A stretch of DNA of 35,903 nucleotides from an uncultured Brachyspira sp. (lineage in GTDB: Bacteria > Spirochaetota > Brachyspiria > Brachyspirales > Brachyspiraceae): assembly GCF_944390845.1 (NCBI RefSeq), contig NZ_CALXRM010000030.1, forward strand, positions 1-35,903, written 5' to 3'. A model generated the notes under the pieces. The model was not told where the DNA came from and did not search any database. It saw only the letters and a program-made list of their open reading frames with translations. The position numbers were made by a program, and so were the translations under genes. Shown here piece by piece: positions 23,857 through 32,743 of this stretch. Every line of letters begins with the position of its first letter. Position 1 is the first letter of the stretch.

Positions 23857-25977
23857 GTGGCAACAATGAATGGTGATAAATCAATTTTAGATTCAATAAA
23901 ATTACCTAGCAATCTTAGCAGGCATAGTGACATAATGTTTGCTGTTGGTGCAGTTATGGTAATAATGATGCTTATTATACCATTACCAGCAATAATTTTA
24001 GATTTTTTGCTTATAGTAAATATAATCGTATCATTATTGATATTACTTATGGTACTTAGTATAAAGAGTGCCAATGATTTTAGTGTATTCCCTTCTGTAT
24101 TGCTTGTAATGACAGCATTCAGACTTGCTTTGAACGTATCTACAACTAGAGCAATTCTTACTGAAGGAACTAACTTTAATGGTAAGGTTATTACTTCATT
24201 CGCTGATTTCGTAGTAGGCGGTAATATAGTTGTAGGTGTTGTAATATTTATAATTCTTATAATAGTACAATTTGTTGTAATTACTAAAGGTGCTACAAGA
24301 GTATCAGAAGTAGCAGCAAGATTCGCATTAGATAGTATGCCTTCAAAAATGATGGCAGTTGAAAGCGAACTTCAAGCTGGTGCTATAACAGATAAAGAAG
24401 CAGAAGAAAAAAGAAAGAAAATCAGAGGTGAAAGTGATTTTTATGGTACTATGGACGGTGCTTCAAAATTCGTGCAAGGTGACGTTATAGCAGGTATTAT
24501 AATTACTGTTATAAACATAGTAGGCGGACTCATCATTGGTATGACAATGAGAGGCGAACCATTTGCTCAGGCAGTTAATGCTTATACTCGTTTTACTGTA
24601 GGTGATGGTTTGGTAAGTCAGATTCCTTCATTCTTTATGAGTTTTGCTACAGGTTTATTAGTAACTAGAAGCAGCAGCGAAGATAATTTGTCTACTCAAA
24701 TTGCTGTACAAATTTTTGCTAAACCTAAAAACTTATTTATTGGTGCTGGTTTCGCATTCTTCTTAATGCTTTTACCAGGCTTCCCAAAATTGGCTTTATT
24801 TGTTATATCATTAGCATTATTTTTAGCTGGATATGCTTTAAGAAAAGAGCAGCAAGAACTTGGACTTAATGAAGATGGTACAAAGGCTGATGCCGGAGAG
24901 CAGGTTCATCAAGGTCCTTTAGATGTTACTCCTTTCTTGAAAGTTGAAAAGATAGAACTTTCTGTTGGTGCCTCTCTTATACCTTTGGCATTAGAATCTG
25001 AAGGAGGGGATTTAATCAATAGAATAAGTCAGATACGTAGAGAGCTTGCTTTGGAGGTTGGTTTAGTTGTTCCTCCGGTACGTATTGTGGATAATAGTGT
25101 AATAGAACCAGATGAATATACTGTTAGTATAAATGGTACTGAAATGGCTAAAGGATTCGTTCGTCCTAATATGCTTTTAGCTTTGAACGCTAATTCTCCA
25201 GATGGCCCTACTCCAGATTGTGAAAGAGTAAGAGAACCAGCATTCGGACTTCCTGCTTATTGGATTAAAGTTGATGAAAAGGATATGGCTGAGAAAAAAG
25301 GCTTTATGTTATTCCAGCCTACATCAGTTATAGCTACTCACTTCAGTGAAACTATTAAAAGAAATGCTAATCTTCTTATCGGACGTGAAGAAGTACAGAA
25401 TATGCTTGATCTTATTAAAGATGATCATAAAGCACTTGTATCAGAAGTACTTGCAGCTAAGCCTCATAATGAAAGTCCTCTTGGATATATACAAAAAGTA
25501 TTACAGAATCTTCTTCAAGAGGAAGTACCTATTAGAAATAGTGTTGCAATATTAGAAGGTGTTGCTGATGCTATATCTATTATGGGAAGTGAACAGGCTA
25601 CAGAATTGGTAAGAAGCAGATTAGCTTCACAAATATCTCAAATGGTTGCAGATCAGGATAGAAATATTAGAGTTATTACTTTAAGTCAGCAATTACAAAA
25701 TAATATAGCACAGAACCTTGCTAATACAGGTAATTTACAGGGTTCTCAAATGATAGCTATGAGTTTTGAAAGTATGCAGAACTTAATTAAGAATATAAAA
25801 GATGCTGTTAAACTTGTTAGTGATTCAGGAGTTGATGATATAGTATTTTTGACTTCTCCTATTATAAGAAGACCTCTATATCAGTTTATAGCTAAGAATG
25901 TTGGTAAGTATAAAGTTATTGCTACAACAGAGATAGCACAAGGATATAATGTACAAGGAATTGCTAGTATTAAATAA
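23857..25977 (+). CDS. flhA: Flagellar export platform protein FlhA
   Basis: FlhA forms the nonameric ring that receives chaperone-substrate complexes and takes part in proton-driven export. The 706-residue protein has about eight spans up to residue 330, with the FHIPEP signature RLALNVSTTRAIL (89-101), and a large cytosolic domain. The start is GTG at 23857: AGGAGG (23843-23848) is 8 nt away, whereas the next ATG (23866) is 17 nt away. It begins 12 nt after flhB and is followed by a small gene and flhF. Confidence 0.96.
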   Translation: MATMNGDKSILDSIKLPSNLSRHSDIMFAVGAVMVIMMLIIPLPAIILDFLLIVNIIVSLLILLMVLSIKSANDFSVFPSVLLVMTAFRLALNVSTTRAILTEGTNFNGKVITSFADFVVGGNIVVGVVIFIILIIVQFVVITKGATRVSEVAARFALDSMPSKMMAVESELQAGAITDKEAEEKRKKIRGESDFYGTMDGASKFVQGDVIAGIIITVINIVGGLIIGMTMRGEPFAQAVNAYTRFTVGDGLVSQIPSFFMSFATGLLVTRSSSEDNLSTQIAVQIFAKPKNLFIGAGFAFFLMLLPGFPKLALFVISLALFLAGYALRKEQQELGLNEDGTKADAGEQVHQGPLDVTPFLKVEKIELSVGASLIPLALESEGGDLINRISQIRRELALEVGLVVPPVRIVDNSVIEPDEYTVSINGTEMAKGFVRPNMLLALNANSPDGPTPDCERVREPAFGLPAYWIKVDEKDMAEKKGFMLFQPTSVIATHFSETIKRNANLLIGREEVQNMLDLIKDDHKALVSEVLAAKPHNESPLGYIQKVLQNLLQEEVPIRNSVAILEGVADAISIMGSEQATELVRSRLASQISQMVADQDRNIRVITLSQQLQNNIAQNLANTGNLQGSQMIAMSFESMQNLIKNIKDAVKLVSDSGVDDIVFLTSPIIRRPLYQFIAKNVGKYKVIATTEIAQGYNVQGIASIK

Positions 25978-26048
25978 TTAAATTGGAAATTATAATGCCC
26001 GTAAATGGAGCAATTTTTTAAGATGTAAATAAATTATGGAGTTAAACT

Positions 26049-26222
26049 ATGAAGACAATTAAAATCTTTGGAAAAAACAGAGAAGAAATTGAGAAACAAG
26101 CTAGAGACAAATACGGCGAAAGCTATTTTATCATTAGCGTTAGAGAAAGCAAAAGGAAGAATATTTTTGGTATGACAAAGAAAGAGTTTGAAGTTTCTAT
26201 CGGTATTTTAGAGCAATATTAA
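26049..26222 (+). CDS. 57-residue FlhF N-domain paralogue
   Basis: A small open frame, ATG to TAA, has a good ribosome site (GGAG 26038-26041, 7 nt before ATG). The product resembles the first 55 residues of FlhF encoded just downstream. Both have an early I-x-x-x-GK, then AR-x-[KE]-YG, F-[IV]-I-[IL]-[ST], a glycine turn (NIFGM against GFLGLGM) and K-x-E-x-E-[VL]-x-I. It ends where the FlhF linker begins, with no GTPase domain. This N-terminal module also resembles the Jag-N fold. Coding signs are the ribosome site, the frame fit in the operon and the homology. A role with or against FlhF is inferred only. Confidence 0.75.
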   Translation: MKTIKIFGKNREEIEKQARDKYGESYFIISVRESKRKNIFGMTKKEFEVSIGILEQY

Positions 26223-26269
26223 TTAGGTGATTATTTAGGGAGTTTTAAGATGATTAGAGGAGAAATAAA

Positions 26270-28303
26270 ATGGTAGATATACGTACTATTAGAGGGAAGG
26301 ATAAGACTGATGCTTTTGCTAAAGCTAGGGTTGAGTATGGCGGAAATTTTGTTATCTTGACCAGTAAAGATGTTAAAGTAGGCGGTTTTTTAGGTTTAGG
26401 TATGAAAACTGAACATGAACTTAGAATAATGCTTAATAACTCTATATACGATAGAAAAAATAATGCATCGGAAGAAAAAACTTCATATTCTAGTGAAGAA
26501 GAAGATGATGATGAAATGCATAGAAATAAACTTCTAAGCGATAGAATAGAGATGAAAAAACATGCTACTGAAACAATTGATGCTAGTGAAATGGCTGATA
26601 GAATAGTTGCAGTTACTAAAGCTTTAAAAGAAGCTTCAAGAGAAAGAAATGCTAATAAAGTAACTAATAATTCTTCTAGTGCAGCAACAACAGTTCCTAC
26701 ATCAGATAAATTTGAAGATGATAATAGAGATAACTTCAGAGATAGTTTAAGGGATAGTTTTAGAGAAAATAATAATGTTAGAGATAATAATATCAGAGAA
26801 AACATTAGTGAAGATATTATGAATGAAACATTAGAACCTACAGTTAATAATTCTAATTCTTATACTGAAGAAAAGAGAGAAATTGTTAGAGAAAGAAATA
26901 CTAATACAGATGGTTTTAGTCCTTTACCTCATTTTAATAATTATCCATATTCTAATTCAAATTTTGCTGGCTCCTCATTTAATAATATGAGAGGCTCGAT
27001 GTTGTCTGACTATTCATCAAATAATGGTTTTTCTCCAATAAATAATTATAGCAATTTTTCTGCTAATAATAATAGTTTTATGAATACTATGAATAACAAT
27101 AATAATATGGGTGGTTTTAATAGTAATGTTATACCTAATCATATAAATAGTTCTAGTAATAAAAACAATAATGCTATTGATGACAATGTTAAGAAAATGG
27201 TTCAAGAGCAGATAAGAGATATGGTTAAAGAATATTTGGAAGGCAGTTTCCCAAATATAAATAAAAATCATAATACTGCTTCAAATACAACTCAAAGTAA
27301 TAATAACAATAGCAGAAATACAAATACATTAGTAAATCATGAATATGAAGATGAAGAAATAAATAATGCTCTTGAAGAAATAAAAGAGTATAGAGAAGAA
27401 AATAATCTTACAAGAGAAAAGAAAACTAACATTAGAGATTATTTTGAAAATCCTGATAATGAAGAACATGATGAGGAAAATAATGAAGAAAGCTCTGATA
27501 TGAACATTGCTGATGGTATGGAGGAGAGCTTCAATTATTTAAGAGATAGAGAATTCCCAGAAGAAGTTTTATTAGATTTAAGAGAATATTTACTTACATC
27601 TAGTAATGCAAGATTTTTCCAATCTAAAGATGTAATTAGAGAAGAAGTTGAGAAATATTTCTCAGATAAATTAATGCTTGCTAATGGTATAGAAATAGGT
27701 GCTAAGAAAAAAATAATAGTATTTGTTGGACCTACTGGTGTTGGCAAAACTACAACTATACCAAAAATAGCAGCTCAATATATGAAGTCTGGTAAGAAAG
27801 TTTCATTTGTTACAATAGATAATTACAGAATAGCGGCAGTTGATCAGCTTCAAAGATATGCTAGTATAATGAAAGTACCATTTACAAGTGCAAGTACTCC
27901 TGAAGCTTTAAGAGCTGAAATAAGAAAACTTGACAATTCTTCGCTTTTATTTATTGATACTATGGGACGTTCTCCAAAAAGTGCAGAAGAAATAGTGGCT
28001 ATGTCAAAATATTTCACAACAGTTGGAAGATTTGATATGGATATTCAGCTTGTTATGAGTGCCACTGCTAAATATAAAGATGCTGTAAAAATAATGAATG
28101 GTTTCAAACCAACAAATTATAAAGGTATCATATTAACAAAAGTTGATGAAACAGATTATTTAGCTTCTTCAATTTGTGCTATAACTAGAAAGAAATTGCC
28201 TATTACTTATATAACTTATGGTCAAGGTGTACCTAAAGATATATCTACAGCCAAAAAATATGGTTATAAAATAATGGAAGGCTTATTTGGTTCTTCAAAA
28301 TAA
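26270..28303 (+). CDS. flhF: Flagellar SRP-like GTPase FlhF with long Asn-rich linker
   Basis: FlhF is a membrane-associated GTPase that sets where and how many flagella form. At 677 residues it is far longer than the usual 350-450. Residues 1-55 are the N-terminal module, with GFLGLGMKTEHEL. Residues 60-410 are low-complexity, rich in Asn, Ser and acidic residues. They include short R-[DE]-[NS] repeats (152-178), Asn runs (274-279, 344-347) and a helical patch at 305-325. The N domain (about 425-475) and GTPase follow, with P-loop [10 protein letters not shown] (487-496), DTMGR (563-567) and TKVDE (623-627), all intact. AGGAG before the ATG sets the start. flhG follows 31 nt downstream, as in other bacteria. 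Confidence 0.95.
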   Translation: MVDIRTIRGKDKTDAFAKARVEYGGNFVILTSKDVKVGGFLGLGMKTEHELRIMLNNSIYDRKNNASEEKTSYSSEEEDDDEMHRNKLLSDRIEMKKHATETIDASEMADRIVAVTKALKEASRERNANKVTNNSSSAATTVPTSDKFEDDNRDNFRDSLRDSFRENNNVRDNNIRENISEDIMNETLEPTVNNSNSYTEEKREIVRERNTNTDGFSPLPHFNNYPYSNSNFAGSSFNNMRGSMLSDYSSNNGFSPINNYSNFSANNNSFMNTMNNNNNMGGFNSNVIPNHINSSSNKNNNAIDDNVKKMVQEQIRDMVKEYLEGSFPNINKNHNTASNTTQSNNNNSRNTNTLVNHEYEDEEINNALEEIKEYREENNLTREKKTNIRDYFENPDNEEHDEENNEESSDMNIADGMEESFNYLRDREFPEEVLLDLREYLLTSSNARFFQSKDVIREEVEKYFSDKLMLANGIEIGAKKKIIVFVGPTGVGKTTTIPKIAAQYMKSGKKVSFVTIDNYRIAAVDQLQRYASIMKVPFTSASTPEALRAEIRKLDNSSLLFIDTMGRSPKSAEEIVAMSKYFTTVGRFDMDIQLVMSATAKYKDAVKIMNGFKPTNYKGIILTKVDETDYLASSICAITRKKLPITYITYGQGVPKDISTAKKYGYKIMEGLFGSSK

Positions 28304-28334: not shown

Positions 28335-29198
28335 ATGAAAGATCAAGCAGATGAATTAAGAAAGATGATGGGACTTAAAGACAGACGTCCCCAACGTATA
28401 ATTAGTATTGCCAGCGGTAAAGGTGGAGTAGGTAAAACTAACATAGCTATTAACTTGTCTATAGCATTGCAGCAATTAGGTCAGAATGTACTTTTGATAG
28501 ATGCAGATCTTGGACTTGGTAATGTTAATGTAATACTTGGAAATATGCCTGAGTATAACCTTTATCATGTTATAAAAGGTGTTAAGAAATTGCATGAAGT
28601 TGTACTTGAAACAGATTATGGTATTAGATATATTGCAGGGGCTTCTGGTTTTTCTTCTTTAGCAAATCTTTCTGGTAGAGCTTTGACTAAATTAGTAAAC
28701 AGCATGGATTCTTTGAATGATGCTGATATTATCATAGTAGATACTGGTGCAGGAATATCAGATACAGTTTTATATTTTCTTCTTTCTTCAGATGAAAGTA
28801 TAGTTGTTACAACTCCTGAACTTACTGCTATACTTGATGCTTATGGTGTAATTAAATCTATTGCTCCTGAAGATGCTAATGCTGATATAAAAATATTAGT
28901 TAATAGAGTTACAAAAGCTTCTGAAGGAAAAGAAGTTGGCGATAAAATTATTATGACAAGTAAAAAGTATTTAGATATGGATGTTAAATATTTAGGACAT
29001 GTTTTTGAAGATAAAACAATTCCTTACGCTGTTTCTCAGCAGCTTCCTTTTTATCAATATGATAATAAATGCCATGCATCTATGTCTATATATAATATAG
29101 CTAAAAAAATTATTGATATGGAATATGATGATGACAGAGAAGTGAAAGGATTAGGCGGATTTATGGAATCACTTCTATCTTTTGTTAGTAAAAAGTAA
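28335..29198 (+). CDS. flhG: MinD-like ATPase FlhG (FleN/YlxH)
   Basis: FlhG is the ParA/MinD-type ATPase that restrains FlhF and so limits flagellar number. The 287-residue protein has the deviant Walker A KGGVGKT (29-35), preceded by a basic N-terminal stretch with DELRKMMG. In FlhG this region holds the DQA(x)xLR motif that stimulates the FlhF GTPase (here DQADELR, residues 3-9). Switch motifs DADLGLGNVN and DTGAGISD follow, and an amphipathic C-terminal helix (MESLLSFVSKK) could bind membrane. The motif and gene order make FlhG more likely than MinD itself. Confidence 0.95.
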   Translation: MKDQADELRKMMGLKDRRPQRIISIASGKGGVGKTNIAINLSIALQQLGQNVLLIDADLGLGNVNVILGNMPEYNLYHVIKGVKKLHEVVLETDYGIRYIAGASGFSSLANLSGRALTKLVNSMDSLNDADIIIVDTGAGISDTVLYFLLSSDESIVVTTPELTAILDAYGVIKSIAPEDANADIKILVNRVTKASEGKEVGDKIIMTSKKYLDMDVKYLGHVFEDKTIPYAVSQQLPFYQYDNKCHASMSIYNIAKKIIDMEYDDDREVKGLGGFMESLLSFVSKK

Positions 29199-29230: not shown

Positions 29231-29872
29231 ATGAATAATATACTTGAAAAAGTGAAACAACATTTTTCTTCTAACTTTGGAAAATTAGGAGCTATTATAA
29301 CTGGTTTATCATTTATTATAACTCTTTTGTTATCAATATCTTTTAAAAATAGAGTTGATGTTTCCATTTTGAAAGCAATAATTTCAGCTATTTTAACACT
29401 TGTAATATTGTTTGTACTTGGAATTATATTGAAAAAATATTTAGGTGATGTAATAGATGAATCAACAATGAGTTCCAATTCAGATATAGATTATAATGCT
29501 ATAGATGATAATAGCGGTTTTGTAGGAGAGGTTAATAATGATAATACTGCTCCTGCAGTAAATGATGATACTCCTATATTTACACCGGATTTGAGTAATA
29601 TAGAAAATATAGGAAAAGGAGCTCCAAAACCTGTTAATGTTGATAAAAAAAGTAAAGTAGATTATCATAGTTCAGGTGATGATATAGGTGATATAGTATT
29701 TGGAAGTTCTAATACATCATCAGCATCAAATTACACTACAAAAAGTACTATGTTTCCAGATAAGAAGATTGATAATGAAGAAATGGTAAAAGAAGCACAG
29801 GAAGATCCTGAAAAAGTTGCTAAGGCTGTTAGAACAATGATAGCTAAAGATGAAAAAAGCGACAATAAATAA
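29231..29872 (+). CDS. Two-span membrane protein of the motility operon
   Basis: The 213-residue protein has two membrane spans (about 20-37 and 47-68) and a long acidic, Ser/Asn-rich cytosolic region (75-185). It ends in a short predicted helix, EDPEKVAKAVRTMIAKDE (191-208). That tail resembles the C-terminus of the MS-ring protein FliF, which binds FliG and has the pattern 'dp..vA.vir.wm..d'. The rest does not look like FliF. It lies between flhG and the sigma factor, each gap under 70 nt, so it is co-transcribed with them. I recall an uncharacterised gene at this position in other spirochaete motility operons, but cannot confirm orthology. Confidence 0.65.
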   Translation: MNNILEKVKQHFSSNFGKLGAIITGLSFIITLLLSISFKNRVDVSILKAIISAILTLVILFVLGIILKKYLGDVIDESTMSSNSDIDYNAIDDNSGFVGEVNNDNTAPAVNDDTPIFTPDLSNIENIGKGAPKPVNVDKKSKVDYHSSGDDIGDIVFGSSNTSSASNYTTKSTMFPDKKIDNEEMVKEAQEDPEKVAKAVRTMIAKDEKSDNK

Positions 29873-30749: not shown

Positions 30750-30763
30750 AATAGGTGATTTGT

Positions 30764-32743
30764 ATGAATGAATTAAAAAGAAAAATATTGCAAAGCGATT
30801 TTTATAAAGAAGTTTATAATAATAAGAACACTCGTTCAGTTGAATTGTCAGTGGAGTCTTTGGAACGCGGAATGCAGGAAGCTGCTGCTATATTCCAATG
30901 TCCAATTTATGAATTAACTTATAAAGTTTTAGAAGAAGGAAGTAAAGGATTTTTTAATATAGGTGCTAAACCTTTTTTAATTAGATACACTCATATCACT
31001 TATGATAAATCTAATATAGGTATGGGACAAGGGGCAGACTATACTATTGGAACATCTGGCGATAGTTCACAAAATAAAGTTATATTCAATAAAGATACAG
31101 ATGTAGTTGTTAGAGTAAAACGCGATGGTGTATTCTTAAAAGTTGTACCTCCTACAGCCGATGGTAAGAGAATTGAGGATATGACCATTGTAGAGGAAAA
31201 ACTTATAGATGCAGGTATTAAAGAATATGATTCACATTTAGCTAAAAAAATGCTTCATGAACAAACAGGAAAATATGAAAAAATTGCTGAATGGGATATA
31301 AGCAGATCTGGAAATAATGCTAAGATAAGTTACAGTATTAGTGATGATAAAATGCGTGCTTATGTTACTGTAACTAAGCCTAATAAAGGCGGAAGAGAAA
31401 TGGATTTGCAGGACGTAAAAGAAATAATGGAAAACTGCGGTATTACATTTGGATTCCAAGAAGAAAATGTTACTAAATGTTTAGAAGAAGGTACTTTTAA
31501 TATTCCTATATTATCTGCTGAAGGACGTCCTCCTGTAAACGGACAAAATGCTAAAATAGAATATTTAGTTAATGTTAATAAAAAAGTTATACCTAAATAT
31601 ATTGGAGAAGATCAAAGTATTGACTATAAAGATTTAAGTATAGTTGAGAACGTTGTAGAAGGTCAAAAATTAGCTAAAAAAATTCCTGCTACAGATGGTG
31701 AGATAGGAAGAACTGTACTTGGTGTTAAAATAGAAACTAAGGCTGGAAAAGATATTGATATTAAAGAAGTATTAGGTGATAATGTTGAAATGTCTGATGA
31801 TGGTGAATATATATTATCTACTATAAACGGACAAGTAGTTCTTAGAGGAAAATCACTTAATGTTGAACCAATATTTGAAGTTTCTGGAGATGTTGGACCT
31901 GAAACAGGAAATATTAACTTTATTGGAAGTGTATTAGTTAAAGGAAGTGTTAATGATAACTATTCAATAAAAGCTGAAGGTAATATTGATGTTCATGGTA
32001 CAGTTGGTAAATGTGATCTTGAAGCTAAGGGTGATATTATGGTTAAACTTGGTATTCAAGGAAATGAAAATAGTGTTGTAAAAGCTGGCGGAGATGTTAT
32101 TGCTAAATTTATACAATTCTCCAATGTTCAAGCTGGAAATAATGTTGTTGTTACAGAAGCAATACTTAACTCTAATATTGATTCTGATAACAGAATTATA
32201 CTTATAGGTAAGAGAGCTTCTGCAAGCGGCGGAAGACTTAGAGCTTTAAGAGAAGTTAATGGTAAAGTTTTAGGTTCTCAGGCTGGTACTAGAACATTGA
32301 TAGAAACAGGAATTAGCCCAGCTAAAAGACGTACTATCGATGATTTAGATAAAGAAAAAGAAGAATTAGATAATTCAATAGAAGAAACAGAAAGAAATAT
32401 TAAATCTTTGGAACAAGCTGCTAAACTTAAAAAGCTTGATGATGAGAAAAAAGAACAATTACAAAGTTATAAAGAACAATTGGAACAAGCAAGCAGTAGA
32501 AGAGAAGAAGTTGTTTTAGAAAGAGAAGCTTTAACTCAAACTATTGAAGTAGAAAAAGTAGAATCTACAATAAGTGCTGGTAAAGAAATGCTTCCAGGTG
32601 TTCAATTGACTATAGGAAGTGCTGAATTTACTATAAGACAAAGTTATAAGTCTATAACATTCTTTGAAGAAAATGGTATGATACAGACTGAGAAATATAG
32701 AGGAGAACCTAAAAACGATAAAAAACAAGATGATGAAGAATAA
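30764..32743 (+). CDS. FapA-like (DUF342) protein with Jag-N module
   Basis: The start is taken at ATG 30764 (659 residues), with AGGTGA 5 nt upstream; the GTG at 30755 overlaps that site. Residues 23-75 resemble a Jag-N module (VLEEGSKGFFNIGAKPFLIRY). The FapA/DUF342 region follows, with a repetitive beta-helix at about 365-500 (GDVGPETGNINFIGSVLVKG and similar turns). Then comes a charged coiled coil (about 515-590) and a short C-terminal strand domain. DUF342 proteins of spirochaetes and Firmicutes are little studied; some have been tied to flagellar assembly or polar placement. Its position after the sigma-28 gene supports a motility role. Confidence 0.8.
   Translation: MNELKRKILQSDFYKEVYNNKNTRSVELSVESLERGMQEAAAIFQCPIYELTYKVLEEGSKGFFNIGAKPFLIRYTHITYDKSNIGMGQGADYTIGTSGDSSQNKVIFNKDTDVVVRVKRDGVFLKVVPPTADGKRIEDMTIVEEKLIDAGIKEYDSHLAKKMLHEQTGKYEKIAEWDISRSGNNAKISYSISDDKMRAYVTVTKPNKGGREMDLQDVKEIMENCGITFGFQEENVTKCLEEGTFNIPILSAEGRPPVNGQNAKIEYLVNVNKKVIPKYIGEDQSIDYKDLSIVENVVEGQKLAKKIPATDGEIGRTVLGVKIETKAGKDIDIKEVLGDNVEMSDDGEYILSTINGQVVLRGKSLNVEPIFEVSGDVGPETGNINFIGSVLVKGSVNDNYSIKAEGNIDVHGTVGKCDLEAKGDIMVKLGIQGNENSVVKAGGDVIAKFIQFSNVQAGNNVVVTEAILNSNIDSDNRIILIGKRASASGGRLRALREVNGKVLGSQAGTRTLIETGISPAKRRTIDDLDKEKEELDNSIEETERNIKSLEQAAKLKKLDDEKKEQLQSYKEQLEQASSRREEVVLEREALTQTIEVEKVESTISAGKEMLPGVQLTIGSAEFTIRQSYKSITFFEENGMIQTEKYRGEPKNDKKQDDEE

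Follow-up and report, generated by a model that had tools for sequence, protein, structure and literature searches.

Why should a reading frame that resembles the beginning of FlhF stand directly in front of flhF itself? The question arises in a contig of an uncultured Brachyspira sp. (NZ_CALXRM010000030.1, here called the window, 35,903 nucleotides in length), where flhA, the small gene, flhF and flhG follow one another in this order (Table 1). The initial annotation had placed here a 57-codon gene with a good ribosome site; the coordinates are right, and the site is a purine-rich GGAG or GGA that is kept at the same place before the start in other genomes. As flhF has a ribosome site of its own, the two frames are not fused. 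The window form of the product, which we call the microprotein, is 57 aa long and reads MKTIKIFGKNREEIEKQARDKYGESYFIISVRESKRKNIFGMTKKEFEVSIGILEQY; the stretches YGESYFIISVR and EFEVSIGILEQY within it are peptides that would reveal its translation.

Table 1. Features of the flhA-flhG region of the window, and related frames at the corresponding loci of other genomes
Feature	Position	Strand	Remarks
flhA, neighbour upstream of the microprotein gene	23857..25977	+	from gene order and sequence
Shine-Dalgarno of the microprotein gene, GGAG	26038..26041	+	ATG begins 7 nt further on
Microprotein gene (free-standing FID)	26049..26222	+	57 codons; ATG 26049, TAA 26220-26222
Shine-Dalgarno of flhF, AGAGGAG	26256..26262	+	read directly
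N-terminal FID of full-length FlhF	26270..26443	+	domain paralogous to the microprotein
flhF	26270..28303	+	677 aa: FID, long low-complexity linker, NG GTPase domain at about 27710-28258
flhG (MinD-like)	28335..29198	+	N-terminal DQADELR matches the FlhF-activating motif DQAxxLR
Second lone FID-type ORF, G019	L044:5193-5363		56 aa, MKTFRIIGRDKREALKKAHNIYG...; between microprotein gene and flhF
Third copy, B. hampsonii 30446	L036:5217-5471		84-codon ORF; also in G004 and G005
Broken microprotein frame, Brachyspira sp. G79 (G015)	L045:5001-5169		downstream flhF open

Several features of the surroundings deserve mention. The linker between the FID and the NG domain of the window FlhF (26480-27500) is of low complexity, rich in Asn, Asp, Glu and Ser, and its length exceeds that in the other families of spirochetes inspected, whose open frames mostly total 380-520 aa. 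FlhG carries the motif known to activate FlhF (PMC12826062). Between flhG and a sigma-28-like gene lies a frame for a 213-aa protein (29231-29872) with two hydrophobic stretches near its N-terminus followed by a polar tail; its position and layout would fit FlgV (BB0268) of Borrelia (PMC10802407).

The microprotein and the adjacent FlhF share only about 25-27% of their residues, and since such an identity over 57 positions merits distrust, we used profiles to settle the matter. Searched against NCBIfam, the microprotein matched a single model, TIGR03499 FlhF (E 1e-4), its residues 1-54 falling on model positions 1-52; the score of 22.5 bits is below the curated cut-off of 174 bits. A class counterpart from a different family gave a stronger match to the same model (E 9e-8), and the alignment of microproteins, compared with an alignment of FlhF N-domains, reached a probability of 97.9% (E 3.6e-13). 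An HMM built from 28 FlhF N-domains, drawn solely from other spirochete families, gave the window microprotein 39 bits against 9.2 for the best of 300 shuffled sequences. When it was run over all ORFs of the window, this outgroup model returned two matches, the microprotein (39.1 bits) and then FlhF (37.3 bits), and no third window ORF came near threshold. Conversely, a phylum-wide search of whole genomes with the microprotein profile led, in the best out-of-class matches examined, to the N-termini of FlhF-like long frames. By these profile comparisons the microprotein is a homologue of the FlhF N-terminus, and the likeness to FlhF residues 1-55 noted in the initial annotation is not one of chance. 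The shared residues listed there hold for the microprotein and its neighbour but not across the whole set, in which few columns are invariant, among them a G at the end of the helix and a G in a loop. The linker and the GTPase are missing, as had been said: the 57 aa stop after the FID, and neither an SRP-type NG domain nor a match to any P-loop family was found in them. With no GTPase and a score far under the cut-off, the microprotein is outside the FlhF equivalog TIGR03499.

Other assignments were considered and dropped. The Pfam matches of the microprotein are weak and at chance level. The window also encodes a FapA (30755-32743) with an N-terminal Jag_N domain (PF14804, E 8e-10) followed by FapA_N and a beta-solenoid; the microprotein ORF has no PF14804 match, aligning the outgroup FIDs with the FapA N-terminus by hhalign gave only 2.5%, and a kinship of the FID with Jag_N is not supported.

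Structure prediction leads to the same domain. AlphaFold2, supplied with an alignment of class sequences and no templates, gave a strand-helix-strand-strand model (mean pLDDT 87.9) whose three antiparallel strands and one helix resemble 9EN1, the crystal structure of the FliG-interaction domain (FID) of Shewanella putrefaciens FlhF (Dornes et al. 2024, PMC11236974). Among solved structures Foldseek ranked 9EN1 chain G at the top (probability 1.00; query TM 0.62, target TM 0.72), with an E-value of just 0.08 that is limited by the size of a 57-residue query; other 9EN1 chains were also within the first ten matches. The N-domain of the window FlhF, taken through the same procedure as a control, likewise found 9EN1 first. 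Searching PDB sequences with the microprotein profile returned nothing relevant; the link to 9EN1 comes through the fold alone. The microprotein is predicted, then, to fold like the FlhF FID.

The frame is conserved far beyond the window. It was found in all 26 genomes of the genus, one copy being frameshifted, and, with that copy counted, in 31 of 31 genomes of the class, which cover the genus, two more genera of the same family and, from a second family, two genera. In every class locus inspected it is located downstream of flhA and upstream of flhF. In 32 other families of the phylum the region upstream of flhF was inspected at 34 loci, and apart from FlhF no FID-type ORF turned up; where flhA is the preceding gene there, the gap between the two is mostly no more than some tens of bases, or the genes overlap. 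A wider scan with the single sequence returned only loci of the Brachyspira class. Weak short-frame matches in other families (G153, G075, G238, G107 and G126) proved on inspection not to be FID genes next to flhF. In a tree built from few columns and rooted at the midpoint, the 12 class microproteins all group on the same side of one branch (support 99/98), which favors a single old origin. The gene would go back to one event in which the flhF 5' end was duplicated, no later than the root of the Brachyspira class, and the duplicate would then have been retained between flhA and flhF.

Further copies have appeared at the locus in individual lineages. In G019 two lone FIDs stand in tandem before flhF, making three in a row with that of FlhF itself; the second sits on a long branch within the microprotein clade. 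In the B. hampsonii group (G004-G006) an extra ORF of 83-84 codons is a separate, recent copy of the flhF 5' end.

As many pairs are saturated at synonymous sites, selection was gauged from pooled pN/pS and from counts by codon position rather than from single dN/dS values. Over all genus pairs the pooled pN/pS of the microprotein is 0.08; in matched pairs the microprotein has 0.048 and codons 1-57 of flhF have 0.094, so that the microprotein changes at about half the rate of the FlhF FID. Among 24 genomes the sites variable at codon positions 1, 2 and 3 number 9, 9 and 48 of 57. The third copy in G004-G006 is a natural control and apparently decays: its pN/pS is about 0.5 over the first 56 codons, while the microprotein of the same genomes shows zero amino-acid changes. 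These ratios lie far below the neutral value that the initial annotation had proposed as a check. Its two other grounds for refutation, a frame lost in relatives and a predicted fold foreign to the FlhF N-domain, are likewise countered by the conservation and the model described above. The microprotein is under strong purifying selection and, as its codon pattern indicates, its gene is a genuine conserved protein gene. That it is a selected, free-standing FID we regard as close to certain.

What might such a protein do? The number and place of flagella are set in many bacteria by FlhF and FlhG (PMC12826062). In S. putrefaciens, FlhF needs its residues 1-60 to bind FliG, and these alone are enough, the FID contacting mainly the FliG M and C domains; FliG held in this way can still bind FliF but is blocked from binding FliM/FliN, and loss of the FID delocalizes the flagellum (PMC11236974). 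The pole protein HubP is bound by the NG domain of FlhF, not by the FID (PMC11236974). We think that the microprotein is best explained as a free-standing FID, an old duplicate of the flhF 5' end that would bind FliG and act in trans as a competitor or holder, a reading to which we would give about half of our belief. The initial annotation had suggested competition for the partner of FlhF, or a cofactor role, which is plausible, and had left the partner unnamed. By analogy, FliG would be its partner, with perhaps somewhat better than an even chance; that its effect would be to compete for FliG or to hold it is perhaps slightly short of evenly balanced. The microprotein would bind FliG at the same M-C region as FlhF. 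Lacking the NG domain, it could neither dimerize on GTP, nor be switched or released by FlhG, nor be tethered through that domain to the pole, and for these reasons it would act in trans. It might occupy FliG away from the assembly site or nascent motors and keep the protein so held from being joined too early by FliM/FliN. A FliG_C search found one FliG in the window genome, so that both FIDs, that of the microprotein and that of FlhF, would share it, and their competition might set the number and site of the basal bodies started. The idea of one FID for each FliG paralogue was discarded: 29 of the 31 class genomes have a single FliG_C gene, one incomplete genome has none, and G029 has one extra, weaker match.

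Two features bear on the choice of partner. Of the GG(F/I/L)LG loop that characterizes FlhF, part is missing from the microprotein, which also has invariant residues of its own; the partner may therefore have changed. In Pseudomonas aeruginosa FlhF binds FliG in its GTP state (PMC12713375), which hints at a possible contribution of the NG domain to affinity.

The main rival to a competitor or holder is a division of labour, in which the FID of FlhF would have switched partner and the free FID would have kept FliG, serving FlhF as an adaptor or cofactor. It owes this rank to the ending of the domain, which is RIML in the FlhF of the class in place of the I-x-E/D type, whereas most free FIDs keep an (I/V)-x-E resembling that of many other spirochete FlhFs. 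The slightly higher score of the window microprotein on the outgroup profile and its halved rate of change point the same way. In most genomes, however, the FID of FlhF outscores the microprotein on that profile, and it keeps the GG(F/I/L)LG loop; FlhF is thus not clearly devoid of the ancestral surface, and we consider the division of labour rather unlikely. Alternatively, the free FID might have a partner different from FliG: FlhF itself, by pairing of the two FIDs, or else FlhA or some further factor of flagellar assembly. Its conserved residues, partly unlike those of FlhF, and its invariant position directly after flhA in the loci inspected would suit such a partner, but gene order by itself names none, and FliG is the measured partner of the FID (PMC11236974, PMC12713375); this too seems unlikely.

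Two further readings would deprive the product of a function altogether. A short ORF that has a ribosome site to itself and lies just before flhF, at a distance of 17-79 nt in most genomes, might be a leader peptide or a device for coupling the translation of flhF in cis, the product being irrelevant. Yet variation is free at third codon positions and nearly absent from the amino-acid sequence, the gap to flhF is variable and in four genomes contains a further ORF, and no terminator-like hairpin was found on the coding strand between the gene and its neighbours; we hold this to be very improbable. Scarcely credible is a decaying flhF fragment or a chance ORF. Decay does affect copies of the flhF 5' end at this locus, and the microprotein gene of Brachyspira sp. 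G79 has two 1-nt deletions; both are in runs of A, however, which suits a sequencing artefact, though a true loss is conceivable, and the frame is open in every other genome. The tree, moreover, points to one old origin rather than to repeated fresh fragments, and the low pN/pS and the presence in 31 of 31 genomes contradict decay.

Returning to the trans-acting competitor or holder, we tentatively propose a class-wide, GTPase-free, FliG-binding microprotein that would regulate the capture of FliG by FlhF, either by competing with FlhF or by keeping FliG from FliM/FliN; we find this plausible without counting on it. Spirochetes of the Brachyspira type have several periplasmic motors at each cell end. 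How the FlhF-FliG capture is tuned, and whether it operates beyond single polar flagellation, are open questions (PMC12826062), and a natural competitor or helper for the placement of flagella may exist in spirochetes of this class. If the proposal is true, the flagellar assembly of a whole class of spirochetes would be under a dedicated, genetically encoded trans-regulator that binds FliG. An isolated FID conserved over the age of a class also offers a genetic handle, as its deletion should alter one interaction and leave FlhF intact. A small gene without a family model of its own and with only a sub-threshold match to FlhF would be filed as hypothetical at best.

The domain itself is already known; what is new, as far as the searched literature goes, is a separate gene for it. 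No such gene is described in the literature searched, which included work on Brachyspira and FlhF and on small proteins and paralogues, with most subscription journals outside it, in agreement with the initial annotation, which knew of no counterpart. The FID of S. putrefaciens FlhF has a similar length (about 45-60 residues), is homologous by profile and shares the predicted three-strand, one-helix fold; the microprotein differs from it in being a separate gene product devoid of linker and NG GTPase, and its FliG binding is putative. With full-length FlhF, an SRP-type GTPase (TIGR03499) encoded by the adjoining gene, it has the homologous N-terminal part in common, but not the GTPase, the pole-binding part or the FlhG-controlled switch. 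The extra duplicates, second in G019 and third in the B. hampsonii group (G004-G006), are likewise lone FID-type ORFs between flhA and flhF; unlike the microprotein they are lineage-specific, and the third copy is separately derived from flhF and decaying. Among eukaryotes, trans-acting single-domain microproteins such as ID and LITTLE ZIPPER consist of a lone interaction domain related to that of a multidomain regulator. They are unrelated to the Brachyspira protein, and the comparison concerns only the way in which it might work, its mechanism being proposed by analogy.
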